The translations under genes were made by a program, and so were the position numbers. 64,000 nt of DNA, taken from Mesorhizobium australicum. Lineage in GTDB: Bacteria; Pseudomonadota; Alphaproteobacteria; Rhizobiales; Rhizobiaceae. Positions 12,130 through 54,406 of the stretch are shown one piece after another. The notes under the pieces are model-generated. The model was not told where the DNA came from. It saw only the letters and a program-made list of their open reading frames with translations, and made no database searches. Location of the stretch: assembly GCF_900177325.1 (NCBI RefSeq), contig NZ_FXBL01000004.1, positions 5,027,501 through 5,091,500 of the forward strand. Reading direction: 5' to 3'. The number at the start of each line of letters is the position of its first letter. Position 1 is the first letter of the stretch.

Positions 12130-12227
12130 ATGGCGTGGAACGCATGCCGGACGCGGGCTCCTCAAGCCGCACGCAGACACAGCGCACCGCCGGGACACCC
12201 CGCCCGTGGTTCGTTCAGATCCGTCAC

Positions 12228-12403: not shown

Positions 12404-12513
12404 GACCACAACATCTAGACGGAAAGGCCATCAGACTGTCAACAGGTCGCTTCAACTGTTGTGTGAAAGTCCGTGTCGGTTATGTTTCGCCACCGAGATT
12501 GGGAGAAGCGGAC

Positions 12514-35414: not shown

Positions 35415-35437
35415 GTCCGCAGAGGGAGGAAGCATCA

Positions 35438-36289: not shown

Positions 36290-36345
36290 TCACGCGGCCT
36301 GCGCCAGCCACCCGCAAATTCAGACGGGACATGAAGGAAGAGAAC

Positions 36346-39500: not shown

Positions 39501-40394
39501 TCATTGCTCCGAATTGGCGGCCCATGCCTCGTCTCGATACCGCCGGATCGCGGTGCGCAGACCGGCTACACTTGGACCCTTTGCCAGAATCGCACGAGAG
39601 ACGGAGGGCAGCGTTCGTTTTGCTGCGCGGCCAAACCTGGCTTTGACGTCCGAGATCGTCGCGCCCTGGGCGCCGACGCCCGGCGCCAACACAAGAGAGA
39701 GTGGTAGCCGGTCAAGGACGGTGCTGTCCGCTGCATCGATCGTCGCGCCGATCACCGCGCCGACATGTCCGATGCCCTCGCCCGTCTCGCGATTGATCAC
39801 CGTGATGGAATCCGCAAGCGCCTCCGCGACGGTCCGGCCATCGTCATGCATCGCCTTCTGCAGGAAGTGTCCGTCGGCATTCGACGAACGTACCACCACG
39901 AAGACAGCCGCGCCGCAGGCGGCAGCCCTGTCGATCACGGGTCTGAGCGCGTCCAGTCCGAGATAGGCGGTGACAGTCATTGCATCGCCACCAAAGCCGC
40001 TGTCATCGCCGAGCATTGCCTGCGCATAGCCCGTCATTGTCCTGGCGAAGTCACCCCTCTTGCAGTCGATGAGGGCGAGCGCGCCCTGGCTCTTGGCCTG
40101 CCTGATCACCTTCGCCATCACGTCCATGCCACCAGGTCCGAGGCGTTCGAAGAAGCCGCATTGCGGCTTCACGACCGCGATCTCGTCAGCCGCCGCTTCG
40201 AGCACTGTCTGGCAGAAGCGATGCATTCCCTCGACCGAATCGTCGAGACCCCAGTGGCGGATGAGATCCTCCGAGGGATCCAGTCCCAGACACAGCGGTG
40301 ATCGTGCCTGTGCGAGATCCACGAACCGATCCGCAAAGCGCCGTGCAACAGGCCTGCTTGTGTTCCCGGATTCGCGTCGAACTGCTGCTGGCAT
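39501..40394 (-). CDS. pyrF: Orotidine 5'-phosphate decarboxylase, type 2 (long form)
   Basis: PyrF converts OMP to UMP. This 297-aa version is the long type-2 form: LCLGLDPSEDLIRHWG, VVKPQCGFFERLG and the catalytic LIDCKRGDFARTM (Asp/Lys/Asp about 110-115), ending RAILAKGPSVAGLRTAIRRY. Alphaproteobacteria normally use the 230-aa type-1 form, so this is probably a second, acquired copy. It follows dctM of a TRAP operon by 14 bp, so its expression is tied to import. Confidence 0.92.
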   Translation of the reverse strand: MPAAVRRESGNTSRPVARRFADRFVDLAQARSPLCLGLDPSEDLIRHWGLDDSVEGMHRFCQTVLEAAADEIAVVKPQCGFFERLGPGGMDVMAKVIRQAKSQGALALIDCKRGDFARTMTGYAQAMLGDDSGFGGDAMTVTAYLGLDALRPVIDRAAACGAAVFVVVRSSNADGHFLQKAMHDDGRTVAEALADSITVINRETGEGIGHVGAVIGATIDAADSTVLDRLPLSLVLAPGVGAQGATISDVKARFGRAAKRTLPSVSRAILAKGPSVAGLRTAIRRYRDEAWAANSEQ

Positions 40395-40408
40395 GCTTCC
40401 GTTCCTCG

Positions 40409-41686
40409 CTAGAAGATCAAGTTGGGCAGGAAGGTCGACAACCAGGGCACATAGCTGACAAGCGCCAGCACCAGCAGATTGACGGCGATGAAAGGCATTA
40501 TGCCGGCCACGACCTGTTCGACCGGTCGCCCGAGCGTTGCCGAGGTTACAGCGAGATCGAGCCCGACCGGCGGCGTTATCATGCCGGTGCAGACGTTCAG
40601 CGTTACGATCATGCCGAAGTGGACAGGGTCGATTCCAAGCGCGGTCGAGACTGGGAAGAGGGTTGGCAGGAAAATCACCATGATCGAGTTGGGATCGAGA
40701 AACATGCCGCAGATGAGAAACAGCACGTTCACGCACAGCATGAACACGATCCAGTTCACGTTGTTGTCCTGGATGATGCCCAGCAATGTGCGGTCAAACC
40801 CGGCCAGCGTGATGAAGTAGGCAAGAAGCGCGCCCATCGACAGCAGGATGAAGATCACGCCGGTGGAGACAGCGCTGTCGCGCGCGATCGAGAAGACGTC
40901 GCGCAACGAGAGCGAGCGGAAGATGAAGACCTCCACGATCACGGCATAGACGGCGGAGACCGCGGCCGCCTCGGTCGCCGTGAATATCCCGCTGAAAATT
41001 CCGACCAGGATGATGACCTGCATCAGCAGCGCCCAGAAGGCGTCGACAAAAGCCGACCACCTCCCGCGCCAGGTCACACGCTCGACCCCAGGAATGCCCT
41101 CCCTCCATGCGGTGAATGCAACCAGCGCCATGAAGCCGAGGCCAAGGACGATCCCCACCATCAGACCCGCCGCAAACAGCGCGGCGATCGAAGTCCCCGT
41201 CAGCCAGCTGTAGACGACAAAGGTGATCGAGGGCGGGATCAGGAGTGCGCATTCCGCGCTCGAGGCTATCAGGCCAAGGCTGAAGCGTTCGCTGAAGCCG
41301 GAGCGCCTGAGTTCGGGAAAGGCCACGCGCCCCATCGCTGCCACGGTGGCTGGAGCGGATCCCGCGGCGGCGCCGAACACCATGCAGGTTACGACCGTCG
41401 AATGGCCGAGGCCTCCCCGTTTGTGGCCGACCAGGGCGCGGAACAGACCGGCAAGCTGCCCTGCCATTCTGCCCCGCGCCATCAGGTCCGCCGCGAAAAT
41501 GAAGAAGGGAATGGCGAGCAGCGTCACCACTTCGACGCCGCCGACCAGGCGCTGCCCGATGATCAGATCGGGCATCATCGGATACATGAGGTATTTGGTG
41601 ACGACCGCCGGAACGCCGAGAACCAGGAATATCTCTGCGGCTATCGCCAGAAGAACGGCCGCGAGAACGAAGAGGAGCCCAACCAT
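40409..41686 (-). CDS. dctM: TRAP transporter large permease DctM (pyrimidine locus)
   Basis: A 425-aa polytopic inner-membrane protein with about 12 helices. Landmarks include LLAIPFFIFAADLMARGRMA, FGAAAGSAPATVAAMG, SAECALLIPPSITFV and TGMITPPVGLDLAV. The longer open frame upstream overlaps dctQ and is not used. ATG 41686 lies 7 bp after the dctQ stop. It forms the channel of a second TRAP system encoded with pyrF. Confidence 0.91.
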   Translation of the reverse strand: MVGLLFVLAAVLLAIAAEIFLVLGVPAVVTKYLMYPMMPDLIIGQRLVGGVEVVTLLAIPFFIFAADLMARGRMAGQLAGLFRALVGHKRGGLGHSTVVTCMVFGAAAGSAPATVAAMGRVAFPELRRSGFSERFSLGLIASSAECALLIPPSITFVVYSWLTGTSIAALFAAGLMVGIVLGLGFMALVAFTAWREGIPGVERVTWRGRWSAFVDAFWALLMQVIILVGIFSGIFTATEAAAVSAVYAVIVEVFIFRSLSLRDVFSIARDSAVSTGVIFILLSMGALLAYFITLAGFDRTLLGIIQDNNVNWIVFMLCVNVLFLICGMFLDPNSIMVIFLPTLFPVSTALGIDPVHFGMIVTLNVCTGMITPPVGLDLAVTSATLGRPVEQVVAGIMPFIAVNLLVLALVSYVPWLSTFLPNLIF

Positions 41687-41693
41687 GTGACCG

Positions 41694-42215
41694 CTACAGA
41701 TGGTGCATGGGGTCGATCTCGCGCGCAAAGCGGTCCGACAACCCAAGCAGTTCAACCAGATATTGCGCCGCAAGCAGGAGGAAGCCGACAGGCATGATCC
41801 CGTAGAGCCACGCGACGGAGAAGCCGAGCGTCGGACTGGTCTGCCCGCTGCGCGCCACGAAAGCCGTGATCTCCCAGCCGACCTTCAGCATGTAGACGCT
41901 GAAGACCAGGCCGAGCAGATTGATGACGATTTTCACGAGGCGCTGGGCCGAAGGCGGCATGCGGTCGAGCAGCATGCGCATGCTGATATGCCGTCCGCTT
42001 TCGAGCGCGAGACCGATCGCCAGAAAGACGATCCACACCAGCCCGAAGAGCGAGACCTCGTCGATCCACGCCAGTCTCGGTGCGAGCGACGGCATGATTT
42101 CACGAACAAGGACATTGGTCGCGTAGCCGAAGGTCATTGCAAGCATGAGCAGACCGAGCAGGAAACCCTGCACGGTCTGCACGCGCCCCAGCGCGGCGAC
42201 GAAGCGCGCGCCCAT
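41694..42215 (-). CDS. dctQ: TRAP transporter small permease DctQ (pyrimidine locus)
   Basis: A 173-aa protein with four hydrophobic helices and the DctQ loop ALESGRHISMRMLLDRMPP. Its ATG shares one base with the dctP stop (TGATG), so translation is coupled. A TTG one codon earlier is possible. Confidence 0.88.
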   Translation of the reverse strand: MGARFVAALGRVQTVQGFLLGLLMLAMTFGYATNVLVREIMPSLAPRLAWIDEVSLFGLVWIVFLAIGLALESGRHISMRMLLDRMPPSAQRLVKIVINLLGLVFSVYMLKVGWEITAFVARSGQTSPTLGFSVAWLYGIMPVGFLLLAAQYLVELLGLSDRFAREIDPMHHL

Positions 42216-43240
42216 CAACCGGCGAGCTTCTTGTACTCGGCGTCGTAGATCTTGAGTATGTCCTCGCCCTCGGCCCCCGCCAGCGCCACATAGGCTTCGC
42301 GGGCCTTCGGCGCGGTCGCGTCGCGCAATTTCCCGCGCTCGGCTTCATCCGCGATCCGGACATTGACACCGGCGGCCTTGATGATCTCGAGCGCGGCGCT
42401 GGCCGACGCTTCCTTCATCTTCTCGACTTCGGGTCGCACCTCGTCGAATGCCTTTGCAATGATGTCCTTGTGGCCATCCGGCAGCGCCTGCCACCATGCA
42501 GGATTGAACAGGACGAAGTCCTCCATCGCGCCATGCTCGGTCACGACGAGGTTCTTCTGGACCTCGTGGAACTTCATGGTGGTGATGGTGTCGAGCGGGT
42601 TTTCCTGCCCGTCGACGAGACCCGTCTGGAGCGAGGTGTAGAGCTCGCCGAAGTTGATGGCGACGGCGGTGGCGCCGACCGCGGCGAACTGATCGATCAG
42701 GATCTTGGAGTCCATGACGCGGAACTTCTGTCCCGCGAGCTCGACCAGATTGTCGAGGGATTTGTTCGAGGTCAGGCTTTTGCGGCCGTTCGGCCATTCG
42801 GTGAGCGCATGCAGACCGCGCTTCTCGAAGCTTGCAAGCAAAGCCTTGCCGAATGGCCCCTCGCGCAGCTGCTGCGACATGGCGCGATCGGTCGGCAGCA
42901 GGTAAGGAACGTCGAGCACCGACACCACCGGATTGAAGCCACCGAGGAAGGCGGCCGGCTGAACCGTGCACTCGATGGCGCCGAACTGCGTGCCCTCGAT
43001 CATCTGGCGCGCATTGCCGAGCTGGGACAGCGGGTAGAGCGTGAACTCGACTTCACCGCTCGTACGTTCCTTCACCAGAGCCCCGACTTTTTCGAGACCC
43101 TTGTGGCGCGGTTGAGCCGGCGATTCGAGATGCGCGACTTTCACTGGATACTTCGCGGCCTGACCGAATGCGACCCTGGGCATCATCGCCGCGGTGGCCG
43201 CCAACGCTCCCGACTTCAGGACTGTCCTTCTGGATATCAT
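42215..43240 (-). CDS. dctP: TRAP transporter substrate-binding protein DctP (pyrimidine locus)
   Basis: A 341-aa periplasmic receptor. The N terminus MISRRTVLKSGALAA has an SRR twin-arginine motif, so export is probably by Tat, with cleavage after VAFG. The mature part shows the DctP fold, with GQKFRVMDSKILIDQFAAVG carrying the carboxylate-binding Arg. GAGGGTGAAC precedes the ATG; upstream lie a TTGACA -35 box and the locus operator. With pyrF in the operon, orotate or a related carboxylated pyrimidine is a reasonable ligand (inference). Confidence 0.9.
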   Translation of the reverse strand: MISRRTVLKSGALAATAAMMPRVAFGQAAKYPVKVAHLESPAQPRHKGLEKVGALVKERTSGEVEFTLYPLSQLGNARQMIEGTQFGAIECTVQPAAFLGGFNPVVSVLDVPYLLPTDRAMSQQLREGPFGKALLASFEKRGLHALTEWPNGRKSLTSNKSLDNLVELAGQKFRVMDSKILIDQFAAVGATAVAINFGELYTSLQTGLVDGQENPLDTITTMKFHEVQKNLVVTEHGAMEDFVLFNPAWWQALPDGHKDIIAKAFDEVRPEVEKMKEASASAALEIIKAAGVNVRIADEAERGKLRDATAPKAREAYVALAGAEGEDILKIYDAEYKKLAG

Positions 43241-43263
43241 CTTGTTCACCCTCGTTTTTAGTT

Positions 43264-43307
43264 GTCTCATTTTTGAGAATTGATCCATATATTGAGTATC
43301 GTGTCAA
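43264..43307 (-). promoter_or_regulatory. dctPQM-pyrF promoter with GTCTC-type operator
   Basis: GTCTCATTTTTGAGAA (43264-43279) is a near-perfect copy of the locus palindrome and ends 24 bp upstream of the dctP start. On the minus strand a TTGACA -35 box (43302-43307) precedes the TCTCA element by 23 bases, so the operator would lie across the -10/+1 region. The arrangement matches the promoters at 49810 and 54028. Confidence 0.7.
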
Positions 43308-43337
43308 CGCCCGTTCGACAGGAAAACGTACCTCCGC

Positions 43338-43706
43338 TCAGTTGGAAATCGACAGATCCGCAAGGCCGACGCGATTGATGAGGGCGATCAGGCTCTCGGC
43401 GTCACCGGGCGGCAGTTCGCTTGCTTCACGTACATAGGCCTTGAGTTGGCTCAGGGCTTGACTGGCGGTGGACAGATCAAGTGGCTCGCCATCAAATTCG
43501 TCTGCGAAGCGACCCGACAGATCGGCCAGCAGCCTCATCAGGCCTGCCTGCCGGTTATGCGAGGCACGAAGCGCAAGGGACCTTCGCTGGAACTCATAGA
43601 AGGTCGCCACGCCGCCCTTCTGCATGTCCAGCCATTGCAGGAGCCCGTGAAGACCCTCCTGCGCCTGCGTTTCCAAATTGATGCCCGAGGAATGTTCGCC
43701 ACTCAT
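43338..43706 (-). CDS. Unknown protein coupled to pyrC
   Basis: A 122-aa protein, predicted mostly helical and cytoplasmic, with no cysteine, signal peptide or motif I recognise. Segments such as TFYEFQRRSLALRASHNRQA and LSQLKAYVREASELPP look amphipathic. Its ATG overlaps the pyrC stop in ATGA, the fourth such overlap in a row in this operon. It might be a subunit, chaperone or small regulator of the pathway. I cannot assign a family. Confidence 0.72.
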   Translation of the reverse strand: MSGEHSSGINLETQAQEGLHGLLQWLDMQKGGVATFYEFQRRSLALRASHNRQAGLMRLLADLSGRFADEFDGEPLDLSTASQALSQLKAYVREASELPPGDAESLIALINRVGLADLSISN

Positions 43707-44818
43707 CTTGCTCTTCCTTCCAACTGCGGATCACGGTCACCTTCTTCGTCGATGGACCAGGCCAGCCGTTCACCCCCACGAAACATCGCGATATCGCTGC
43801 TGCCGATCCGCAGGGAGCGATCGCCCAGATTCTTCCGTCGTCGCAGCGTGATCGTCCCGGTGTTGAGCGGTAGACGATAGAAGGCCGGTCCGTTGCAGGA
43901 TGCGAATGATTCCAGCCTGCCGAGCGCGCCCTCCTCCTCGAAAACCTGGGCATAGGTCTGAAGGGCGGTCGGCCCGCAGAAGATGCCGGCCGAACAGCAC
44001 TCCGCCTGCTTGGCCTCGCGAAGATGCGGTGCCGAGTCGGTGCCGAGGAAAAAGCAGGGATCGCCGGAGACGGCGGCGCGCCTGAGCGCCAGGCGATGGT
44101 GCTCGCGCTTGGCGACCGGCAGGCAATAGTAGTGGGGCCGCAGGCCACCCTGAAACAATGATGTGCGATTGAGCACCAGGTGGTGGGGTGTGATGGTCGC
44201 GGCCATGCGCGCCGAATTCTCGCGCACAACGGCCACGCCTTCGACGGTCGTGACATGCTCCAGCACGATCCTGAGTTCCTGGTGTCGACCAAGAAGTGTC
44301 CGCAGGCTGTTCTCGATGAAGAAGCTCTCGCGGTCGAATGTGTCGACCGTCGGCTCGGTCGCCTCGCCGTGGATCAGAACGGGCATGCCGATCCTTTCCA
44401 TCCGCTCCAGCACGGATCCGATACGGGCGAGGTTGGTGACGCCGTGACTTGAATTGGTCGTTGCGCCGGCCGGATAGAGTTTGCAGGCAACCCACACGCG
44501 GTCCCGAAAGCCGGCCTCAACCTCGTCGGCGGATGTCTCGTCCGTCAGGTAGCAGGTCATCAGGGGTGTAAACGTGGCTCCTCGCGGCAGCGCCGCCACG
44601 ATCCGGTCGCGATAGGCTTGCGCCGCGGCCACCGTGGTGACCGGCGGGGTCAGGTTGGGCATGACGATGGCCCGACCGAACTGCGAACTGGTGAACGGCA
44701 GCACCGCCCTCATCATGTCGCCGTCCCGAAGATGAACGTGCCAGTCGTCCGGGCGCCTGATCGTCAGCGTCGTGACGGGACTGTCGCCGGGCGGACCGAA
44801 GATCTTTTCGGTGTTCAT
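43703..44818 (-). CDS. pyrC: Dihydroorotase (E. coli PyrC type)
   Basis: A 371-aa amidohydrolase that interconverts N-carbamoyl-L-aspartate and dihydroorotate. HVHLRDGDMM (His27/29) binds zinc, Lys113 in CKLYPAGATTNSSHG is the carbamylated bridging residue, HGEATEP and LEHVTT supply further His ligands, and FLGTDSAPH the catalytic Asp. This is the class II (350-aa) form. It overlaps amaB upstream and the unknown gene downstream by ATGA. In a catabolic reading it would hydrolyse dihydroorotate. Confidence 0.94.
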   Translation of the reverse strand: MNTEKIFGPPGDSPVTTLTIRRPDDWHVHLRDGDMMRAVLPFTSSQFGRAIVMPNLTPPVTTVAAAQAYRDRIVAALPRGATFTPLMTCYLTDETSADEVEAGFRDRVWVACKLYPAGATTNSSHGVTNLARIGSVLERMERIGMPVLIHGEATEPTVDTFDRESFFIENSLRTLLGRHQELRIVLEHVTTVEGVAVVRENSARMAATITPHHLVLNRTSLFQGGLRPHYYCLPVAKREHHRLALRRAAVSGDPCFFLGTDSAPHLREAKQAECCSAGIFCGPTALQTYAQVFEEEGALGRLESFASCNGPAFYRLPLNTGTITLRRRKNLGDRSLRIGSSDIAMFRGGERLAWSIDEEGDRDPQLEGRAR

Positions 44819-46101
44819 TGCGCCGCCTCCTGGATCGCGGCATGCATCACATCTATCCCGGCGATCAGATCAGACAGGTCCATCGCCTCGCGCGGATTGT
44901 GGGAACCGTGCTGGTTGCGCACGAAGACCATGGCGCTCGGCACACCGGCATTCGCAAACACCGCCGCGTCGTGCCCGGCGCCGCTGGCGATCGTTTCGAA
45001 GGGGAGATTCAGCCGACCGGCCGCGGCGGTCAGTCTTTCGATCCACATCTTGTCCATGGTGGCGCCGGCGGCCTCCACCTTCTCGTCGAACCGGAAGGAC
45101 ACGCCGCGCTCCCTGGAGACCGAGGCGCATTCGGACAGGAAGAGTTCGTAGACGGCGTCGAGCGTGGCCTTGCTCTGACTGCGAATTTCGAAGGCGAAAC
45201 GCACGAGTTCAGGAATACGAGCGATGGCATTGACCTTCGGGTCGGTCGCGACAATGCCCGATGTGAGGACCAGATCGTGGCCCCGCTCAAGCAACGTTCT
45301 CCAGTGCGCGTCGAGATGGGTGATCAGTTCGCACATCCCGAACACGGCGTCGTGGCGCAGCCATCTTGGCACCGCCCCCGAATGACCGGCCTGGCCGACA
45401 CATTCGACCGCGCGGTGCCTTATGTTGCCACGGATTCCCGAGACGATCCCTATCGGCAGGTTGCGGGCGGTGAGCACCGGGCCCTGCTCGATATGGAGCT
45501 CCACCCAGGCCGCCATGGACGCCGGCTCCAGCAAGACCTCGCGCGCTGCGATACGGTCGACCGCGACACCGACGCTGCGCATGCAGTCGCCCATCGAGCG
45601 ACCATCGTCCTCCGCCTTGGTCTCCAGATCGGACGGCGTCAGCTTCCCAAAGAGACAGCTCGATCCGAGATAGGGTTTGCCAAATCGCGCGCTCTCTTCG
45701 CCGCGCAACGCGAACAGCTTGACCGTGCGCTTCAATGGTCTTTCCAGCGCCTTCAGACGGCGCAGGACGGCGAGTGCCGCAACGACGCCGGCGGCTCCGT
45801 CGAAATTTCCGCCTTGCGGCACCGAATCGACATGCGAGCCGCAGGCGATGAAGGGAAGTCCCCCATCAGATCCGGGCAGCGTGGCGACGAGGTTGGCGGC
45901 GGCGTCCCTCTCCGTGGTCAGACCGATGCGCCGGGCTTCGACCTCGATCATCTCAAGAGCTCGGCTCTCCACCTCGCTATAGGCGACGCGACTGATCCCG
46001 ACACCATCGAATGCCGCGTCCCGAAGTGCATCGAACAGCGTCGAGATCTCGTCATACTCGCTGGGCGCGTGTCCACGATTGCGGGTGGCCGACGCCATCA
46101 T
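44815..46101 (-). CDS. N-carbamoyl-L-amino acid hydrolase (M20 family; candidate ureidosuccinase)
   Basis: A 428-aa member of the hydantoinase/carbamoylase M20 family, which frees an amino acid, CO2 and ammonia from its N-carbamoyl form. Metal ligands are His90 in CGSHVDSVP, Asp101 in GGNFDGAAG, the Glu pair in ALRGEESARFG and His in WVELHIEQGP, with a final His in GSHNPREAM. Sitting between pyrC and pyrD, N-carbamoyl-L-aspartate is the likely substrate, making it a ureidosuccinase. Allantoate or beta-ureidopropionate hydrolysis are alternatives. ATG 46101 overlaps pyrD by ATGA. Confidence 0.88.
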   Translation of the reverse strand: MMASATRNRGHAPSEYDEISTLFDALRDAAFDGVGISRVAYSEVESRALEMIEVEARRIGLTTERDAAANLVATLPGSDGGLPFIACGSHVDSVPQGGNFDGAAGVVAALAVLRRLKALERPLKRTVKLFALRGEESARFGKPYLGSSCLFGKLTPSDLETKAEDDGRSMGDCMRSVGVAVDRIAAREVLLEPASMAAWVELHIEQGPVLTARNLPIGIVSGIRGNIRHRAVECVGQAGHSGAVPRWLRHDAVFGMCELITHLDAHWRTLLERGHDLVLTSGIVATDPKVNAIARIPELVRFAFEIRSQSKATLDAVYELFLSECASVSRERGVSFRFDEKVEAAGATMDKMWIERLTAAAGRLNLPFETIASGAGHDAAVFANAGVPSAMVFVRNQHGSHNPREAMDLSDLIAGIDVMHAAIQEAAQ

Positions 46102-47048
46102 TGCGCCGGCTCCGTCCACGCCATGTCAGGTTCGTCGCTTTCTTCAACGACGAGCGCTCCGGACAGGTCGGCGATTCTCGCTATGTCCCGGTGCGCGCAA
46201 AACTGCGCGAGACCGTCGATGATGCGGAGAAGAGCATCAGGCTGGACAAAGGACGCAGTGCCAATCTGCACGGCCGTCGCCCCTGCCAGCAGGAATTCCA
46301 CCGCATCCTCGGCGCTGGAGATACCGCCGCATCCGATAATCGGAATCCTTGCCGCCCGCGCGCACTGGTAGACCTGCCGCAGGATGATCGGCTTGACCGC
46401 CGGCCCGGACAGTCCACCCATGATATTGCCCAGGGAAGGCCTGAACGTCTTCAGGTCCACGGCCATTGCCAGGATCGTGTTGGCGACGACAAGGGCGTCC
46501 GCACCTGCTTCCTCGCTGGCGCGCGCGACCGCCGCGATGTCTCCCGTGTTCGGCGTCAGCTTGGCCCACAGGGGAAGAGTTGTCGCCCTGCGCAGTGCAG
46601 CGGTCACGCGCGCCGCCGACTTGGGGCTCATCGCGAAGGCCTTGCCGTCTTCCTCGATGTTGGGACAGGAGATGTTCGCCTCGATCGCGGCAACGCCCGG
46701 CACAGAGACGGCTTCGGCGAGATAGGCAAATCCCTCCACGGTCGGCGCCGAGATGCTGACCACGAGAGGGGTCGAATACTGGGCATAGAGCGGCAACGTC
46801 TCTTCTATGAAGTGGTCGATGCCCTTCGACGGGATTCCGATCGAATTGATCATGCCGTCGGGCTGTTCCACGACGCGCGGCAAGGGGTTGCCAGTCCGCA
46901 ATTCGCGCGTGATCGTTTTGGTGACCAGCGCGCCAAGCCGGTTGAAGTCGATGACGCGATCGAGACCTTCGGCGAAGGTTCCCGAGGCAGGCATGACCGG
47001 GTTGCGCAAGCTCAGCGACCCGACCTTGACGGAGAGATCGACGCTCAT
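46098..47048 (-). CDS. pyrD: Dihydroorotate dehydrogenase, class 1B catalytic subunit
   Basis: A 316-aa FMN barrel enzyme interconverting dihydroorotate and orotate. It begins VKVGSLSLRNPVMPASGTF, and the catalytic base is Cys128 in NISCPN, which marks class 1 (class 2 has Ser). C-terminal IIGCGGISSAEDAVEFLLAGA binds FMN phosphate. Class 1B works with an FAD/FeS PyrK partner and NAD, and pyrK lies directly upstream with an ATGA overlap. Alphaproteobacteria normally rely on class 2 PyrD, so this pair is probably an extra, specialised enzyme. Confidence 0.93.
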   Translation of the reverse strand: MSVDLSVKVGSLSLRNPVMPASGTFAEGLDRVIDFNRLGALVTKTITRELRTGNPLPRVVEQPDGMINSIGIPSKGIDHFIEETLPLYAQYSTPLVVSISAPTVEGFAYLAEAVSVPGVAAIEANISCPNIEEDGKAFAMSPKSAARVTAALRRATTLPLWAKLTPNTGDIAAVARASEEAGADALVVANTILAMAVDLKTFRPSLGNIMGGLSGPAVKPIILRQVYQCARAARIPIIGCGGISSAEDAVEFLLAGATAVQIGTASFVQPDALLRIIDGLAQFCAHRDIARIADLSGALVVEESDEPDMAWTEPAQ

Positions 47049-47893
47049 GGCATCGCCTCCGCCAGGTCGAAGACGGGACCGTCCCAGCACACGCGCCGGC
47101 TGATGATCTCGCCATCGACGTTGAAGTCGCGAACGCAGCAGTAGCAAAGGCCGATGCCGCAGGCCATCTGCTGCTCGAGCGCGATCTGGCCGGGGATGCC
47201 GAACTCATGCGCCAGCCGCTGTTGCACGCGCATCAGCCGGGCTGAGCCGCAGGTGAAGAAGGCGTCGCAACTGTCCTGTGCGATCAGAGCGCGCAGAACC
47301 TTCTCGACATTGGCGGGACCGCTGGTGGCTTCGGCATCGGTCACACCGATCACGTCTGCGCCATAGGTCTGGAAAAGGTCGACAGAAACCAGAAGATCGG
47401 GACGGCGCGCACTCAGGATCGCCGTGACGCGAATGTTCAGTTCGGCCGCCGCACGAGCCAACGGCGCAAGGGTCGCCAGACCCGCGCCACGTCCGACCAC
47501 GACGATGTGGCGCCATTGCCGGTCGAGCGTGAAACCAACGCCAAGCGGCCCGAAGACGTCGATGGTATCGCCGGACTGAAGGGTCGCCAGGCCTCGCGTG
47601 CCCGCACCCGTCACCTTGTACAGAAACTCGATCCGACAAGGATCTGCCTGCACCGCATAGACGCTCATCGGACGGCGCAAGAACGGCTTTTCGCCAACCG
47701 GCTGCGGGCAGAGGAGTTGAAAGAACTGGCCGGGGCGAGCGCTCGCGGCGAGCGCGCCGCATGAGAGAATGAGGTGCCTGTAGTCGCTCGCGATGGGGCG
47801 ATTGGAGATGACCGTCGCAATCTCGGGCATCGCCTTCGGCTGCCACGCCGCGCCTGATCTCGAACCGACTTGCTCTCCTGACGTCTGAAGCAT
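47045..47893 (-). CDS. pyrK: Dihydroorotate dehydrogenase electron transfer subunit PyrK
   Basis: A 282-aa FAD/[2Fe-2S] protein linking PyrD to NAD(H). FAD binds at RRPMSVYAV (about 73-81), and NAD at VGRGAGLATLAPLA (about 134-146). The C-terminal cluster ligands are Cys245, Cys250, Cys253 and Cys269 in CGIGLCYCC...RRVCWDGPVF, as in Gram-positive PyrK. It is first in the operon pyrK-pyrD-carbamoylase-pyrC-unknown. ATG 47893 was chosen by family start; the ribosome-binding site is weak. It is divergent from pyrE. Confidence 0.92.
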   Translation of the reverse strand: MLQTSGEQVGSRSGAAWQPKAMPEIATVISNRPIASDYRHLILSCGALAASARPGQFFQLLCPQPVGEKPFLRRPMSVYAVQADPCRIEFLYKVTGAGTRGLATLQSGDTIDVFGPLGVGFTLDRQWRHIVVVGRGAGLATLAPLARAAAELNIRVTAILSARRPDLLVSVDLFQTYGADVIGVTDAEATSGPANVEKVLRALIAQDSCDAFFTCGSARLMRVQQRLAHEFGIPGQIALEQQMACGIGLCYCCVRDFNVDGEIISRRVCWDGPVFDLAEAMP

Positions 47894-47952
47894 GCTGCAG
47901 TCACCGGCTAAAAAGAGAGCCTGACACAGGCAAATCTCAATTGCAATGCTTT

Positions 47953-47968
47953 GTCTCTTTTTTGCGAC
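47953..47968. promoter_or_regulatory. GTCTC-type operator in the pyrK/pyrE divergent region
   Basis: GTCTCTTTTTTGCGAC is a looser copy of the locus palindrome, 60 bp upstream of pyrK and 184 bp upstream of pyrE. The whole gap 47894-48151 is AT-rich compared with its flanks, holds both promoters, and shows no gene. Confidence 0.5.
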
Positions 47969-48151
47969 AAAACGCCAACTGATATCAGTATCTGCATTGT
48001 TAGCTTTTTGTGAGGAAATGTCGCATTTTTCAAATTCGACGTTGACGGATCGCCGCCCGGGGGACAGAAGAGGCCGTTTGTACCCAGCAAGCGCCCGCCC
48101 CTGACAACGCCGCGCCGGTGAACGCCGACGCGCAGCCATGGAGAACGACCC

Positions 48152-48856
48152 ATGCCCAGCCTCTACACGCCCGTCGACAAGGAGACGATCGCCAGGGAAG
48201 CAGCGAAGATGCTGCTCGAGATCAAAGCCGTTCACTTCTACGACGAGAAGCCGTTTTTCTTCACGTCGGGTTGGGCAAGTCCCGTCTACATCGACTGCCG
48301 CAAGATCATCTCATATCCACGGCTGCGCTCGTCGCTTATCGACTTCGCGGCGGCGACGATCGTGCGCGATATCGGCTACGAGTCGATCGACTGCGTCGCC
48401 GGCGGCGAGACAGCCGGCATCCCGTTCGCAGCATGGATCTCCGACCGGCTGATGCTGCCGATGCAGTATGTGCGCAAGAAGGCCAAGGGCTTTGGACGCA
48501 ACGCGCAGATCGAGGGTGAGATCGCTTCGGGCGCCCGCACGATTCTGGTCGAAGACCTGGCGACGGACGGACGGAGCAAGGTCAATTTCTGCCAGGCGCT
48601 GCGCGAGGCCGGAGCGCATGTCGATCATTGCTTCGTGCTGTTCTACTACGACATCTTCCCGAAGAGCCGCGAACTGATGGAGGAGTTGGGCGTTCGCCTG
48701 CACCACCTCACCACATGGTGGCATGTTCTGGAGGTCGCCAAGGCAAGCGGCCATTTCGAGCCGAAGGTTCTCGGCGAGGTCGAGCAGTTCCTGAATGATC
48801 CGGCAACGTGGTCGGCGGCGCACGGCGGAATCTCGGACTTCGGCAAGAGCGCCTGA
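48152..48856 (+). CDS. pyrE: Orotate phosphoribosyltransferase
   Basis: PyrE joins orotate to PRPP to give OMP. The 234-aa protein shows [19 protein letters not shown], the [12 protein letters not shown] loop, the basic [10 protein letters not shown] segment and the PRPP motif [13 protein letters not shown] (about 131-143), matching the form found in rhizobia. GGAGAACGACCC precedes the ATG. It is divergent from pyrK and convergent with the XRE gene. With PyrF it completes orotate-to-UMP conversion. Confidence 0.94.
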
Positions 48857-48872
48857 GGCGCCCGACAGGAGC

Positions 48873-49790
48873 TCAGGCCGTCGCAGCGCGACGACGGCCT
48901 GGCGCACCGATCGCGGAGCGCGTCAGCACCGTGCGCAGAAGATCGGCCGCTTCCCTGCCCTTGCGCGCCCGCTTCCAGAGTTCGTCGACAAGCCGTTCAT
49001 AGAGCTGCACCGGCTCGAGATCCGCCGTGACCGTCGCAACGCCGGAACGGATGTTGGGCAGATCCCCCCCAAGCCGGAACGGACTGACGCCGAGATAGGT
49101 CTTCTCGGCGGTTCGGAACAGCTGGAAGGCTGTGTTCGGCAGAACCTCTTCCAGAAGACCGATCTGGATTCCCATCGGCTCGCTCTCGATCAGCGTGATC
49201 AGATGCTCGACCTCGTCGCGCGCGGCCCGTCGCCGCTCTGTCAGTTCGGGGCCGGACATATCGAACCGGCCGACGATGCCGAGCTTCAGCCAACGCTCGA
49301 TTTCCAGCAGATTGACGAAATTAACCACGCTCAGGCGCCGCTGCTGACTCGACTGCTTGCGCTCGTCGAGGATGGAGATGATCAGGTCGATGTCGCGCTC
49401 GGCGGTCTTGTCGTGAACATGCGGCGGCAGCGTTTCGAGCAACGAGCGTTTCAGATAGGCCGGGAAGGCGTCGGAGGTCAGCAGGTAAGACAGCGGCGGG
49501 AAGTGGGCGACAACCTGGTCTGCATCCGCCTCGATCTGGCGCATGCGCTCGAAATAGCTGATGGGGCTGGCGTAGTACTCCACGCCTGCGCCGAGCAGCG
49601 AAGCGACCGTCGTGCCGAGAACGACGGCCAGCTTCTCGAGAGTTTCGATCTTCACGACGTCGCCGGTCTCGATGCGATAGACGGCGGCGCGCGAGATTCC
49701 CAGGTCGTCGGCGATGGCATCGGCGGTGAGGCCTTTGCCCATCCGGTAGGCCTTCAATCGCCGGCCAATCTCCTCGAACTGGCTTGCCAT
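48873..49790 (-). CDS. XRE family transcriptional regulator with long C-terminal domain
   Basis: A 305-aa regulator. Residues 6-64 form a Cro/CI-type helix-turn-helix (IGRRLKAYRMGKGLTADAIA, then DDLGISRAAVYRIETGDVVK). The remaining 240 residues have no motif I recognise and presumably sense a ligand; the segment YYASPISYFERMRQIE follows the linker. ATG 49790 has GGGAGGGG upstream. Its promoter carries the GTCTC palindrome that also precedes the TRAP, pyr and ABC operons, so it is the likely regulator of this whole locus and of itself. Confidence 0.85.
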   Translation of the reverse strand: MASQFEEIGRRLKAYRMGKGLTADAIADDLGISRAAVYRIETGDVVKIETLEKLAVVLGTTVASLLGAGVEYYASPISYFERMRQIEADADQVVAHFPPLSYLLTSDAFPAYLKRSLLETLPPHVHDKTAERDIDLIISILDERKQSSQQRRLSVVNFVNLLEIERWLKLGIVGRFDMSGPELTERRRAARDEVEHLITLIESEPMGIQIGLLEEVLPNTAFQLFRTAEKTYLGVSPFRLGGDLPNIRSGVATVTADLEPVQLYERLVDELWKRARKGREAADLLRTVLTRSAIGAPGRRRAATA

Positions 49791-49809
49791 GGCCCCTCCC
49801 AAATCGTTT

Positions 49810-49854
49810 GTCTCATTATTTAGACGCACTTAGCGTAAATACGCCCCGCTGCAA
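49810..49854 (-). promoter_or_regulatory. XRE regulator promoter with GTCTC-type operator
   Basis: GTCTCATTATTTAGAC (49810-49825) ends 20 bp before the regulator start. A TTGCAG -35-like box (49849-49854 complement) lies 24 bases upstream of it on the minus strand, the same architecture as at 43264 and 54028. It points to autoregulation. Confidence 0.6.
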
Positions 49855-49860
49855 AGTCTC

Positions 49861-50631
49861 TCAGCCGGCCTCCAACGCCAAACGTTCCCGGGCGTCGGTA
49901 CTTTCGTGCCACCTGAGCATTCGCCGTTCGACATGGTCTACGGCCATGAACAGGGCATAGCCCAAAAGGGACAGCAGGGTAACGCTGATCAAGACCAGGC
50001 CGATGTCGGACGTCTCCTGGCCGAGACTCAAAAGATAACCCAATCCCGCACGGGCGCCCATCAGTTCGCCGATCACCGCCGCGGTGACAGCCAGGGTGAT
50101 GCCAACCTTCATCCCTGTGAACAGGAGCGGCAGGGCCTGCGGAAGCTCGATCCGCCACAGGCGGCTCCAGGTGCTCATGCGCAGGATCCTAGCCAATGCG
50201 AGGAGATTCGGGTCGATCGTCCGCAACGCGCTGATCATGTTGGACAGGACCGGAAAGAAGACGACGATCGCCACCAGCACCACCTTTGGCGTTGCCCCCA
50301 GCCCCAGCCACAGCAGGAGCAGCGGCGCGATGGCGATCTTCGGCGCGGTCTGTACGAAAATGATCAAGGGGTTCATGACGATCTCGAGCAGCGGAACGCG
50401 CACGAACAGCACTGCGAGACCAATGCCGAGCACCGTGCCGATGACGAAACCCAGCACGATTTCCATCAGGGTCACAGGGACATGGCTGAACAGCCCGGCC
50501 TGTGTCGTCAGGAACCAGAATTTCGCCGCCAGCGTTGGCGGCGACGGCACGAGGTATTCGGGGACGCCGAATACCCAGACCGCGCCCCACCAAAGGGCGA
50601 CAAACACCAAGAGCGAAATGACTGCTCGCAA
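49861..50631 (-). CDS. NitT/TauT-type ABC transporter permease (second of two)
   Basis: A 256-aa inner-membrane subunit with about six helices and the EAA-type loop (FPVLSNMISALRTIDPNLLA, later GITLAVTAAVIGELMGARAG). It is of the SsuC/TauC/ThiX family. The start is TTG at 50631, 6 bases after GGGAGA. It is last in the ABC operon, 45 bp after the binding protein. A different permease is encoded earlier, so a heterodimeric channel is likely. Confidence 0.85.
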   Translation of the reverse strand: MRAVISLLVFVALWWGAVWVFGVPEYLVPSPPTLAAKFWFLTTQAGLFSHVPVTLMEIVLGFVIGTVLGIGLAVLFVRVPLLEIVMNPLIIFVQTAPKIAIAPLLLLWLGLGATPKVVLVAIVVFFPVLSNMISALRTIDPNLLALARILRMSTWSRLWRIELPQALPLLFTGMKVGITLAVTAAVIGELMGARAGLGYLLSLGQETSDIGLVLISVTLLSLLGYALFMAVDHVERRMLRWHESTDARERLALEAG

Positions 50632-50676
50632 GTCAGGTCTCCCGGCGCTCCAGCCCAGCTGGAGCGCCGCTTTGCG

Positions 50677-51684
50677 CTAGAGATCGGATGGCTTCTCGAC
50701 GACGAGGTCGGCGGCGGGGAAGGCCTCCGGTATCGCCTTGTATTCGGCTGCGACGTCGATCGTCTTCTGCCAGCCGGCGATGTTGCCGTAGCCGAAGCCG
50801 TTCGCCTTCGTGTCCTCGCTCTGCCACAGGGTCTTTATGAAGACCTCCTTGATGATTTCGGTGACGACCTTCTCTTGCGGGGCGAAAGTCGGCGCATAGT
50901 CGGCGATCGCCATCTTGACCTCCTTTTCAACGTCACCCTCGACGATGTGCTTGAGGGCCTTGTCGAGCGCGGCGATGAAACCCTTCACCTGCTGCGGATT
51001 GGAGGCGAGATAGCTGTCCGACGTGACAAGCACGTTGCCGTGGCTGGGCAGGAAATCATCCGAAGCGATCATGCCGACATCCACGCCCTCGGCCTTGAGC
51101 GCGTAATAGCGCAGCATGGAGAAGACGATCGCGTCGACCTGGTCCGACTTCAATGCATCCAGGATCGCGCCGGTGCCGACGATCTCGACCTTGACGTCGT
51201 CGATGGACTTGCCGGCCTGGCTCATCATAACCTGAAGCTGGATGTAGTTCGGGCTGCCGTAGCTTGTCACGGCGACCTTCTTGCCAACGAGATCCGCCGG
51301 GGTCTTGATGCCGCTCGCATTCTTGAACAGCACCGCACCGATGCCGCGCTGATAGGTCGAGTGGACAACCTTGACCGGGATGCCGTTCGCGCGGGCGGAG
51401 ATGACGGCATCGCCATTCGGAAAGCCGAACTGGACATTGCCGGCGGCAACATTGTTCAGGATGTCCGCGGCATTGGCATAGAGGAACTCGACCTCAAGAC
51501 CCTGTTCCTTGAAGTATCCTTCCTTCTGCGCGACGTACAGCGGAAGATAGTAGGGCACAGCCGCGCCATCGATCTGGATCGTCACCTTTTCATCGGCTCT
51601 GGTCGCGAACGTTCCGGCCGTCAGCGCCAGCAGCGCGAGCGGAATTGCCAGTGCGGCGGCCCTTAGGATTGCGTGCAGTCTCAT
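50677..51684 (-). CDS. NMT1/ThiY-like ABC transporter substrate-binding protein
   Basis: A 335-aa periplasmic receptor with a Sec signal peptide (cleavage near FATRA). The mature start reads EKVTIQIDGAAVPYYLPLYV, then AQKEGYFKEQGLEVEFLYA, the NMT1/THI5-like fold used for pyrimidine precursors, sulfonates and nitrate. AGGAG precedes the ATG. Being encoded between a nucleoside phosphorylase and a permease in a pyrimidine regulon suggests a nucleoside or pyrimidine ligand (inference). Confidence 0.87.
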   Translation of the reverse strand: MRLHAILRAAALAIPLALLALTAGTFATRADEKVTIQIDGAAVPYYLPLYVAQKEGYFKEQGLEVEFLYANAADILNNVAAGNVQFGFPNGDAVISARANGIPVKVVHSTYQRGIGAVLFKNASGIKTPADLVGKKVAVTSYGSPNYIQLQVMMSQAGKSIDDVKVEIVGTGAILDALKSDQVDAIVFSMLRYYALKAEGVDVGMIASDDFLPSHGNVLVTSDSYLASNPQQVKGFIAALDKALKHIVEGDVEKEVKMAIADYAPTFAPQEKVVTEIIKEVFIKTLWQSEDTKANGFGYGNIAGWQKTIDVAAEYKAIPEAFPAADLVVEKPSDL

Positions 51685-51702
51685 CACATTCTCCTCTGTC
51701 GG

Positions 51703-52488
51703 TTATTGTGTCTTGAAGGTTTCGATCATGGTCGCCGCCGCCTGAGCGCCAATGCGCAGGAGGTTGCGCTGGGTTGCCTCGTAGTCTTCGAGCCAACCAT
51801 CGCTGCGCCGATGTGCGTGCACGGCCAGAACGGCGCCGGCCCGCACATTGCATGCGGAGGCCACCGCCAGGATCACTTCGGCTTCCATTTCGACGGCATC
51901 GGCGCCCGCCGCCGCGAAACGATCGAGCAGGCCGGCATCTCCCTGGCCATCGGCGGTGTTCGGCCTGCCCTGGGCGCGATAATATCCGTCGGCGGTCAGG
52001 CATTTTCCCGGACGGGCCGCCAATCGAAGCGATCTGCAGGCGTCAAGCAGCGCCGAACTGACCGAAGCGTCCGCGCCGACCGCGATCGCCGGGTCCGGCT
52101 GATACACAGCGGCGACGCCGCTGTTGCGGACAGCCTCCTGCACGATCAGGAAATCGCCGAGCGACAGATCGTCGGCGAGCGCGCCGCAGCCACCGGTACG
52201 AATGAGGATGGTTGCGCCCATCGCGGCAAGCTCCACCGTCGCGATCTCGGCCGAGGCGCCGCCGACACCGGTCGAGCACACCCCGATCAATGCTTCTCCA
52301 AAATAGCCGCACCCCAGTCGAAACTCCCGGTTCTGGCCGACGACGACAAAATCGCGGAGCACGGACGCTGCGAAGTCGACGCGAGCGGGATCGCCCGGCA
52401 GCAGGAAGGCTGTCGGCATCAGCGTGGGACGCGGCAGATGAGGTGGGGTATCGCCGCGCCAGGGCCATGCTGCCGAACGGTTGTTCAT
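51703..52488 (-). CDS. Nucleoside phosphorylase (uridine phosphorylase/PNP family)
   Basis: A 261-aa enzyme of the PNP_UDP_1 family, splitting a nucleoside with phosphate into base and ribose-1-phosphate. Phosphate-binding FLLPGDPARVDFAASVL opens the protein, followed by VCSTGVGGASAEIATVEL, the base-pocket IRTGGCGAL and the ribose-binding DAVEMEAEV. ATG 52488 overlaps the upstream permease stop by ATGA. It sits inside an ABC importer operon, so it probably acts on the imported compound: uridine, or perhaps orotidine. Confidence 0.87.
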   Translation of the reverse strand: MNNRSAAWPWRGDTPPHLPRPTLMPTAFLLPGDPARVDFAASVLRDFVVVGQNREFRLGCGYFGEALIGVCSTGVGGASAEIATVELAAMGATILIRTGGCGALADDLSLGDFLIVQEAVRNSGVAAVYQPDPAIAVGADASVSSALLDACRSLRLAARPGKCLTADGYYRAQGRPNTADGQGDAGLLDRFAAAGADAVEMEAEVILAVASACNVRAGAVLAVHAHRRSDGWLEDYEATQRNLLRIGAQAAATMIETFKTQ

Positions 52489-53237
52489 CGCCATGAGAGC
52501 AGCCATTTTTCAAGGCCGGCGAGCGACTGGTAGATCAGGATGCCGAGCAGTGAGGTGACCAGCACCATCGCGAACAGCATCGGCGTCTTGTACGTGGTTC
52601 CGGCGAAGACCATCAGGTAGCCAAGTCCCTGCCCGCCGGAGAGCCATTCAGCCAGGATCGCTCCGATTGTGGCCTGCACCGCGCCCACTTTGAGGCCGGC
52701 GAATATTTCGGGGACCGCCGAGGGAAGCTCGATGCGAACGAGGCGGTCTCTTCGTGTAAGGTGCAGGATGTCCGCCAGGAAGCCGAAATTCGCGGGCACC
52801 GAACGCAGCCCGAGGATCGTGCCTGCCATCACCGGGAAGAAGACCAGGGAGACGGCCAGAACGATCTGGGAGGTCAGTCCGAGCCCGAACCAGAGGATGA
52901 AAAGCGGCGCCAGCGCGATCTTGGGCGCGGTCTGGAAAAAGAAAAGGTAGGGGCCGATGATCCGCTCGGTCCGCGGGCTCTTGGCCAGGATGAAGCCAAG
53001 CACGAAACCCAGCGCCGATCCGATCCCGAAGCCCGCGACGATGATGCCGAGCGTATGCGCCAGATGCGGCCAGATTGTCCCGTCCCGGAAGAGCGCAACG
53101 AGGGCCGATCCGACGGCGCCCGGCGGCGGCAGCACAAAACGCGGAACGTTGAAGATCCGCACATAGGCCCACCATACCGCGATCAGCGCGAGCGGCGTCA
53201 CGACCATGAAGACCGCATGCAGGGCGCGGTTGTTCAT
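52485..53237 (-). CDS. NitT/TauT-type ABC transporter permease (first of two)
   Basis: A 250-aa inner-membrane subunit with about six helices. It has the EAA-like loop FPVMAGTILGLRSVPANFGF and, near the C terminus, AVQATIGAILAEWLSGGQGLGY. It overlaps the ATPase gene and the phosphorylase gene by 4 bp each. Confidence 0.87.
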   Translation of the reverse strand: MNNRALHAVFMVVTPLALIAVWWAYVRIFNVPRFVLPPPGAVGSALVALFRDGTIWPHLAHTLGIIVAGFGIGSALGFVLGFILAKSPRTERIIGPYLFFFQTAPKIALAPLFILWFGLGLTSQIVLAVSLVFFPVMAGTILGLRSVPANFGFLADILHLTRRDRLVRIELPSAVPEIFAGLKVGAVQATIGAILAEWLSGGQGLGYLMVFAGTTYKTPMLFAMVLVTSLLGILIYQSLAGLEKWLLSWR

Positions 53238-54004
53238 TTCAGTTCCCGACGCAGCAGTGAGAGCCAGCGATGGAAATCGGGCGTGTCCTTGAGCGCCTCG
53301 TCGCGATCCTTGCCGAGGTCGAGCGTATGGACGGCGCTGATCCGTCCCGGCCGGGGCGACATGACCGCGACGCGATCCGACAGATAGGCAGCCTCATCGA
53401 TGGAGTGGGTTACGAAGACGATCGTGGCTGCCGTCTCCGCCTTGATGCGAAGAAGTTCGTCGTTCATGCGATCCCGGGTCAGGAGGTCGAGCGCGCCGAA
53501 TGGCTCATCCATCAGGACGAGCCGCGGGCGATAGACGAGCGCACGGGCGATGGAGGCGCGCTGCCGCATTCCACCCGAGAGCTCCTTGGGCAGGGCCCTG
53601 CCGAAATCCTTGAGTCCGACCAGTGCCAGCATGGCGGCCGCGCGCTCGTCTGCCTCCTGCCGTGCGACACCGAACACGTCGAGCGGAAACCGCACATTGT
53701 CCTGAATGCTGAGCCAGGGCAGCAGAACGGGCTCCTGGAAGACGAAACCGATATCGGTTCCGCGGCTCGGCGCCCCGTCCTGCCAGCGGATCACGCCGCC
53801 CGACGCCTGTTCCAGCCCGGCCAACAGGCGCAAAAGGGTCGACTTACCGCACCCCGATGGTCCAATAAGGCTCAGGAGTTCGCCGCGATAGACGTCCAGC
53901 GTCACGGGCGAGAGGGCCTCGACGTTCGAGCCCTCTCTGGTTTTGTAAGTCTTGGTCAGCGCTTCCACGCCGACAAGCACCGAAGGATCTGTCGTCTGCT
54001 GCAA
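53234..54004 (-). CDS. NitT/TauT-type ABC transporter ATP-binding protein
   Basis: A 256-aa SsuB/TauB-like ATPase. Walker A is GPSGCGKST, the Q-loop FVFQEPVLLPW, the signature LSGGMRQR, and Walker B LVLMDEPFGALD. The open frame extends to 54103, but the operator and promoter at 54028-54073 lie inside that extension. I therefore take the TTG at 54004, with GTG codons further in as alternatives; none has a strong ribosome-binding site. It is first in the operon ATPase-permease-phosphorylase-binding protein-permease. Confidence 0.85.
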   Translation of the reverse strand: MQQTTDPSVLVGVEALTKTYKTREGSNVEALSPVTLDVYRGELLSLIGPSGCGKSTLLRLLAGLEQASGGVIRWQDGAPSRGTDIGFVFQEPVLLPWLSIQDNVRFPLDVFGVARQEADERAAAMLALVGLKDFGRALPKELSGGMRQRASIARALVYRPRLVLMDEPFGALDLLTRDRMNDELLRIKAETAATIVFVTHSIDEAAYLSDRVAVMSPRPGRISAVHTLDLGKDRDEALKDTPDFHRWLSLLRRELK

Positions 54005-54027
54005 TTTTTTCGACTGCCGAGCCCGTT

Positions 54028-54073
54028 GTCTCAATATTGAGACGAAGGTTGCAAGGAACTCGATCCTTGTCAA
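54028..54073 (-). promoter_or_regulatory. ABC operon promoter with perfect GTCTCAATATTGAGAC operator
   Basis: GTCTCAATATTGAGAC (54028-54043) is a perfect 16-bp palindrome and the best copy in the locus. On the minus strand a consensus TTGACA (complement of 54068-54073) lies 25 bases upstream of TCTCA. Initiation at or just after the palindrome means repression by occlusion is likely. Confidence 0.75.
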
Positions 54074-54196
54074 ACTGAAAACGCGCTGGCTCAAACTTTG
54101 CAATCGGGTCAGCCGACCAAAATATCAGCGATCAGCGTTTTTCGGGCCAAGTGCGTCGATGAAACTGATCGCTCACCAGAGCGGATCTGGCGGCCG

Positions 54197-54330: not shown

Positions 54331-54406
<76 letters not shown>

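Follow-up and report, generated by a model that had tools for sequence, protein, structure and literature searches.

A candidate regulon for orotate import and breakdown in Mesorhizobium australicum

Analysis of a 64,000-nucleotide stretch of the 5.86-Mb Mesorhizobium australicum genome (contig NZ_FXBL01000004.1, C4:5027501-5091500; hereafter the window) reveals a locus of about 15 kb in which pyrimidine enzymes, two importers and an XRE-family regulator are packed together, and which probably serves the uptake and reductive breakdown of orotate. Parts were assigned by Pfam and NCBIfam scans followed by inspection of start sites, and in this way every gene that an initial annotation of the bare sequence had named here was confirmed. 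The first minus-strand run consists of pyrK, pyrD, an M20 carbamoylase gene, pyrC, an open reading frame (ORF) of 122 amino acids (aa), dctP, dctQ, dctM and pyrF; pyrE is encoded on the opposite strand and points away from pyrK. The second minus-strand run, from 54004 to 48873, encodes an ATP-binding cassette (ABC) ATPase, a permease, a phosphorylase, an NMT1-type binding protein, a further permease and the XRE regulator. The frames of the locus are open. A 16-bp palindrome, GTCTCAAnAnTGAGAC, precedes four transcription units (dctP, pyrK, the XRE gene and the ABC operon), and its copies are listed here as operator copies together with the genes.

39501-40394 (-): pyrF, type-2 orotidine-5'-phosphate decarboxylase (TIGR02127 259.7 bits, cut-off 110.6)
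40409-41686 (-): DctM, large membrane subunit of a tripartite ATP-independent periplasmic (TRAP) transporter (PF06808, E 4e-101)
41694-42215 (-): DctQ, TRAP small membrane subunit (PF04290, E 3.8e-29)
42215-43288 (-): DctP, TRAP binding protein, predicted to bind orotate; start probably ATG 43240
43264-43279 (-): operator copy before dctP, TTCTCAAAAATGAGAC, 1 mismatch
43338-43706 (-): conserved 122-aa protein, no match in the Pfam and NCBIfam scans
43703-44818 (-): pyrC, class II (dimeric) dihydroorotase (TIGR00856 412.8 bits, cut-off 292.95)
44815-46119 (-): M20 carbamoylase, predicted N-carbamoyl-L-aspartate amidohydrolase, that is ureidosuccinase (TIGR01879 283 bits, cut-off 204)
46098-47048 (-): pyrD, catalytic subunit of a class 1B dihydroorotate dehydrogenase (NF005574 355.2 bits, cut-off 269)
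47045-47893 (-): pyrK, FAD/[2Fe-2S]/NAD electron-transfer subunit (PF10418)
47953-47968 (-): operator copy between pyrK and pyrE, GTCGCAAAAAAGAGAC, 2 mismatches
48152-48856 (+): pyrE, orotate phosphoribosyltransferase (NF001729 390 bits, cut-off 245)
48873-49790 (-): XRE-family regulator with an N-terminal helix-turn-helix (HTH) of the Cro/C1 type (PF13560, PF01381)
49810-49825 (-): operator copy before the XRE gene, GTCTAAATAATGAGAC, 1 mismatch
49861-50631 (-): ABC importer permease (PF00528)
50677-51687 (-): ABC importer binding protein, NMT1/THI5-like (PF09084, E 2.4e-43)
51703-52506 (-): uridine-phosphorylase-like nucleoside phosphorylase (TIGR01718 127.5 bits, below the cut-off of 280.3)
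52485-53237 (-): ABC importer permease (PF00528)
53234-54004 (-): ABC importer ATPase, proposed start TTG 54004 (PF00005)
54028-54043 (-): operator copy before the ABC operon, GTCTCAATATTGAGAC, a perfect palindrome with 0 mismatches

The real starts of three of these proteins probably lie inside the longest ORFs, near 43240 in DctP, at 49790 in the XRE protein and near 54004 in the ATPase. They have been moved inward partly because the operator sits in the apparent N-terminal extensions, and the TTG start at 54004 follows from the position of the operator and from analogy with L028, one of the related loci described below.

PyrD, PyrC, PyrE and the type-2 PyrF each score above the curated cut-off of their own family. 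PyrD aligns with L. lactis PyrDB (1ep1) at 238.6 bits and keeps the position of Cys135, which we take to be the catalytic residue; the equivalent cysteine is present in at least 97% of 80 aligned PyrD sequences, that of the window included. PyrK (105.8 bits against 5ksw_B) is recognised by PF10418 but falls below the NCBIfam PyrK equivalog cut-offs; the cysteines of its C-terminal motif, presumably those of the [2Fe-2S] cluster, are kept. A PyrD above cut-off with its cysteine and an adjacent PyrK with its cysteines mark a class 1B dihydroorotate dehydrogenase, and PyrDK is predicted to be an NAD(H)-linked enzyme of this class. PyrC aligns with the E. coli enzyme (1xge) at 409 bits and retains the metal-site and flexible-loop residues, including the loop threonines, whose usual roles we assume here; this places it in class II. 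The carbamoylase and PyrE match 3n5f and 4ohc at 168.6 and 344.6 bits, respectively. Genes for a dehydrogenase, a dihydroorotase and a carbamoylase are therefore found together in the window, as breakdown of the type known from Clostridium oroticum requires. An accessory class 1B enzyme in Proteobacteria stands out, because the class table of a 2023 article (PMC10395836) assigns class 1B to Gram-positive and class 2 to Gram-negative bacteria.

Relatives were collected by scanning a species-genome collection with a PyrK alignment of 13 rows, which gave 228 relatives; the best 80 were kept. These 80 loci, selected by PyrK, belong to alpha- and betaproteobacteria. Gene presence in them was judged by local phmmer searches, while clustering and transporter counts used score filters. 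PyrK is found in all 80 by construction, PyrD in 79, the carbamoylase in 78 and a PyrE-type protein in 66; the XRE regulator follows with 51, class II PyrC with 34, DctM with 26, DctP with 25 and DctQ with 24. The 122-aa protein is seen in 25 (many of the matches weak), the phosphorylase in five and type-2 PyrF in a single one, L028. A core of the gene set recurs in related genomes: pyrK, pyrD and the carbamoylase gene are near neighbours with the same orientation in 78 of the 80 loci, which speaks against a chance grouping. Ten further regions, taken from the 28 other genomes with a PyrK match, all contain PyrK, PyrD and the carbamoylase. Nine of these regions are new, because L123 duplicates the DNA of L046; L124 is 89% alike to L046 over 6.9 kb. 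Within the 80 loci, L082 and L087 match each other at 95% identity or above over more than 3 kb, as do L091 and L097.

The genome of M. australicum holds a separate set of de novo pyrimidine genes. Outside the locus are encoded a class 2 PyrD (L001), a type-1 PyrF (L008; C4:369992), a class I PyrC (L022) and a PyrE of the TIGR01367 type (PyrE_Therm; L014, 220.4 bits against a cut-off of 150.25). The ORF adjoining the class I PyrC is an aspartate carbamoyltransferase (ATCase, PyrB; NF002032 411.7 bits, cut-off 263), and all three places in the genome that match the ATCase family PF02729 lie outside the window. A further dihydroorotase-family protein (L023), PreA and two dihydropyrimidinase-family proteins are also present. 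Given this separate PyrB-PyrC pair, class 2 PyrD, PyrE_Therm and type-1 PyrF, the locus is a second set, non-orthologous to the de novo genes of the genome. The situation named in advance as fatal to a breakdown role, in which these genes would be the only biosynthetic copies, is excluded at the level of gene content, and class 2 PyrD scores above its cut-off in all 56 other locus-bearing genomes tested (50 reached through named loci, 50 of the 80 having been submitted, and six from the class sample). A biosynthetic reading of the locus was dropped on account of the second set, and the idea that its PyrE is the sole copy, the other match being only 33% identical, was given up once L014 had matched TIGR01367. 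As had been claimed, neither ATCase nor carbamoyl-phosphate synthetase occurs among the window ORFs scanned; the rest of the genome was not searched for the synthetase.

The TRAP transporter is complete, with all three subunits DctP, DctQ and DctM. A relative of DctP with a known structure is Desal_2161 (4NN3), a lone solved TRAP binding protein from a Desulfovibrio, with which 192 of 324 aligned residues (59%) are identical and whose structure, according to PMC11668362, contains orotic acid. DctP keeps 94 of the 96 group-invariant residues in common with the orotate-bound 4NN3 group. It is predicted to be an orotate-binding protein, and this kinship backs the earlier proposal of an importer for orotate. 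Lys170, at the position of Arg152, was considered as an orotate-specific residue and dropped, as 9dsy and 4ovs carry lysine there too. Among the relatives, the TRAP importer is swapped for a carrier of the major facilitator superfamily (MFS): 24 of the 80 loci have TRAP, 42 an MFS carrier upstream of pyrK and one has both. The one MFS carrier scanned with NCBIfam comes nearest to the family of aromatic-acid/H+ symporters, reaching 314.7 bits where the cut-off is 418.55. This frequent gene upstream of pyrK had been considered as a replacement dihydroorotase until it proved to encode the carrier.

The second importer with a nucleoside phosphorylase, also claimed in the initial annotation, is present in modified form: the importer can be specified as an ABC transporter of the NMT1/SsuABC type, and the phosphorylase, at less than half of the curated uridine phosphorylase cut-off, is a divergent relative of that family. 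Gln179 and Arg181 (a Gln-x-Arg pair) are kept in six aligned locus phosphorylases. The window enzyme also has a later arginine of uridine phosphorylase, and these residues presumably recognise the pyrimidine. The substrate of this operon is likely to be a pyrimidine nucleoside, for which orotidine is the boldest candidate. The phosphorylase occurs with the ABC operon in five of the 80 loci and in one further stretch, L132. The operator precedes the ATPase gene with at most one mismatch in the window, L028 and L029 and with two in L132, while L060 and L098 have only 3-mismatch sites at this place.

The consensus GTCTCAAnAnTGAGAC was derived by inspecting the spacers between genes in the window, L028 and L029, and the sites of the latter two are not independent of it, since both were inspected while it was written. 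At one mismatch or fewer it occurs at three places in the whole genome, all of them in the locus, and allowing two mismatches adds one more place in the locus. In the 80 loci, 29 sites with at most one mismatch fall upstream of regulon genes (82,468 bases) and five outside (1,460,799 bases); at up to two mismatches the numbers are 60 and 16. Sixty permuted half-sites gave on average 0.28 and at most 3 sites in the upstream regions. The operator goes together with the XRE gene: both are present in 36 loci, XRE alone in 14, the operator alone in three and neither in 27 (Fisher p 4e-8, uncorrected for kinship). Six of the nine new extra stretches have a site at up to two mismatches; L123, the copy of L046, has none at this threshold. 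The shared operator before four units backs the earlier description of the locus as a regulon.

It is the XRE protein that would bind the palindrome. At three of the four window sites the proposed start codon follows after about 20-24 bases, a spacing which would suit a repressor; as the starts were chosen partly from the position of the operator, this is only consistent with such a role. Most likely the XRE protein is a repressor that leaves the DNA once orotate or a product is sensed by its C-terminal domain. The C-terminal half shows a moderate structural resemblance to the phospholipase-D fold, although the part beyond residue 159 was barely tested by the search list, and no effector domain of known ligand was recognised among the matches of the fold search. 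To our knowledge, the pairing of an XRE regulator with such a domain is uncommon. The single H-x-K-x4-D string of the window protein was dropped as a catalytic HKD motif because the relatives do not keep it. The XRE proteins of L043, L045, L046, L049 and L124 score about 247-270 bits and have no upstream operator at two mismatches; perhaps they are a sister regulator with another operator. L076 and L088 have similar XRE scores, yet the operator is present.

The distribution of the locus is patchy. Among 385 genomes of the class, 11 encode a PyrK of the locus group, and so do 19 among 297 from the order (M. australicum being counted in both) and none of the 12 other genomes listed from the same family. 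The GC content at third codon positions is lowered from about 34.6 to 54.1 kb of the window. Patchy distribution and lowered GC together suggest that the locus is accessory and has moved horizontally. A tRNA-Ala(CGC) gene lies at its edge (54331-54406, minus strand); no second copy of the 3' end of this tRNA, as expected for an attachment site, was found within the window, where the best other match is 16 bases at 16233. ORFs for an alpha/beta hydrolase and an aldehyde dehydrogenase (34640-37782, plus strand) share the lowered third-position GC.

Taken together, the data make it probable that the locus is a patchily distributed regulon, controlled by the XRE protein, through which orotate is imported and broken down reductively and which has a side branch to uridine monophosphate (UMP). 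The separate de novo set, the kinship of DctP to 4NN3 and the shared operator support this reading, as does a group of aspartate ammonia-lyase genes which adjoins the core in eight of the 80 loci and fits breakdown to aspartate and beyond. The four of these lyases that were scanned score above the NF008909 cut-off of 510 (664-720 bits) and below the TIGR00839 cut-off of 681 (582-647 bits); four of the eight loci belong to Bosea or Boseaceae, the others to Devosia, Bradyrhizobium, a metagenome-assembled genome of Acetobacteraceae and Massilia. In the proposed sequence of events, DctPQM would import orotate, PyrDK would reduce it to dihydroorotate with NADH, PyrC would open the ring to give N-carbamoyl-L-aspartate, and the carbamoylase would cleave this to aspartate, CO2 and ammonia. 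PyrE together with PyrF could divert part of the orotate to UMP, a branch which is not general, since apart from the window just one of the 80 relatives has type-2 PyrF in its locus. The ABC operon with its uridine-phosphorylase-like enzyme would probably supply a pyrimidine nucleoside, and the XRE protein, bound to GTCTCAAnAnTGAGAC before the four units, would most likely repress them until orotate or its product relieves the repression.

A more far-reaching version, which we put forward only tentatively and consider somewhat less likely to be right than wrong, is a complete and horizontally spread regulon for the use of both orotate and orotidine. Here the ABC importer would work with the divergent phosphorylase, as a new orotidine phosphorylase, to set orotate free from orotidine, TRAP or MFS would import orotate, ureidosuccinase would lead to aspartate and aspartase to fumarate, and an XRE protein with a degenerate phospholipase-D-fold domain would sense orotate and bind the palindrome.

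Several observations weigh against the breakdown regulon. The one cut-off that the carbamoylase exceeds is that of TIGR01879, a broad hydantoinase/carbamoylase model; it stays below those of the narrower models listed, so that its substrate, N-carbamoyl-L-aspartate, is read from context. The 80 loci were chosen by PyrK and are not independent of one another, and 15 of them have neither TRAP nor MFS carrier. Class II PyrC is not found in 46, although such absences may be overcounted because several contigs are short. Of these 46 genomes 36 were submitted and searched; 22 carry a class II PyrC above cut-off elsewhere and 14 do not. No replacement hydrolase was recognised among ten neighbour proteins scanned from PyrC-less loci, in which not all neighbours are annotated. 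With respect to the operator, two mismatches bring in four places elsewhere in the genome, a backwards-pattern control giving 4 strand-counted matches against 10. Within the window the palindrome is not enriched at up to three mismatches: its 7 strand-counted matches, all at the four places, compare with a mean of 3.63 in shuffles, 11 of 100 of which reach 7. The argument therefore rests on position and genome-wide scarcity. Finally, 14 of 50 XRE-bearing loci lack the operator at two mismatches and three of 30 XRE-less loci have it, and L124, L129 and L130 carry XRE with no site at up to two mismatches.

Other explanations of the locus have to be weighed against these data. It is possible, if unlikely, that the enzymes work towards biosynthesis and salvage a precursor taken up from outside (dihydroorotate, N-carbamoyl-aspartate or orotate) to UMP through PyrC, PyrDK, PyrE and PyrF, while the carbamoylase acts on some other substrate. 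The class 1B enzymes of Gram-positive bacteria presumably serve the de novo pathway there. PyrE-type genes accompany 66 of the 80 loci, type-2 PyrF is found in the window and L028, and the table in PMC10395836 lists class 1B in Gram-positive bacteria, all of which would fit salvage. However, the carbamoylase, which would waste an intermediate of this route, is among the most constant partners of the locus (78 of 80), whereas PyrF accompanies one of the 80; the recurrence of aspartate ammonia-lyase and the presence of de novo genes elsewhere also speak for breakdown.

Less probable still is the breakdown of a hydantoin or a related cyclic ureide, in which PyrC as hydantoinase and the M20 protein as carbamoylase would handle something other than dihydroorotate, and PyrDK would reduce an orotate analogue. 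The M20 protein does score with the hydantoinase/carbamoylase and the N-carbamoyl-glutamate (ErtE) families, and TRAP and MFS transporters are generally known to carry many carboxylates. But PyrC is clearly a class II dihydroorotase with the flexible-loop threonines to which we ascribe their known role, DctP groups with the orotate-bound 4NN3, and PyrE in the locus points to orotate. That the locus is nothing but a genomic island in which spare genes of pyrimidine metabolism have gathered with no common function seems very improbable: the lowered third-position GC between about 34.6 and 54.1 kb and the patchy distribution would be expected of an island, whereas core, transporters, regulator and operator recur across many genera and the frames are open.

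The enzymology of orotate breakdown dates back to the 1950s, and the fermentation of orotate by Clostridium oroticum (now Faecalicatena orotica) proceeds through an NAD-linked dihydroorotate dehydrogenase, dihydroorotase and ureidosuccinase. The regulon proposed here has the same enzyme types in the same reductive order. It differs in being proteobacterial and in adding an importer, the PyrE/PyrF branch, the XRE regulator and the shared operator; the two are likened by pathway and enzyme class only. Reductive catabolism of uracil and thymine, carried out by PreAT, dihydropyrimidinase and beta-ureidopropionase, follows the same logic of reduction, ring opening and carbamoyl cleavage. In contrast to it, the locus would act on a carboxylated substrate with PyrDK in place of PreTA and a dihydroorotase in place of dihydropyrimidinase, and would yield aspartate. 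With de novo biosynthesis the locus has the reactions of PyrC, PyrD, PyrE and PyrF in common, but it lacks ATCase, its enzymes are of other classes than those of the de novo genes of the genome, and it adds the carbamoylase and importers. Both PMC9326563 and PMC10395836 cite a paper, Argyrou 2000, whose title assigns the dehydrogenase of C. oroticum to class 1B.

In its genes and their regulation, the locus would be a novel version of a known pathway. No gene cluster for orotate breakdown, ureidosuccinase gene or operator was found among the papers listed from the open-licence PMC literature, many of which concern the orotate transporter of lactococci in its role as a genetic tool, and an earlier description elsewhere is possible. 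The locus offers candidate genes for every step of orotate breakdown, ureidosuccinase included, together with an operator and a putative sensor of orotate, and could serve as a marker for orotate users in genomes. It also cautions against taking class 1B PyrDK or class II PyrC of Proteobacteria for biosynthetic enzymes as a matter of course.

Two minor features of the window may be added. A calcineurin-like phosphoesterase gene (37936-39288, minus strand) follows pyrF, and a 215-bit relative likewise follows pyrF in L028. A cobalamin riboswitch (131.7 bits) is located at 12211-12419 on the minus strand.

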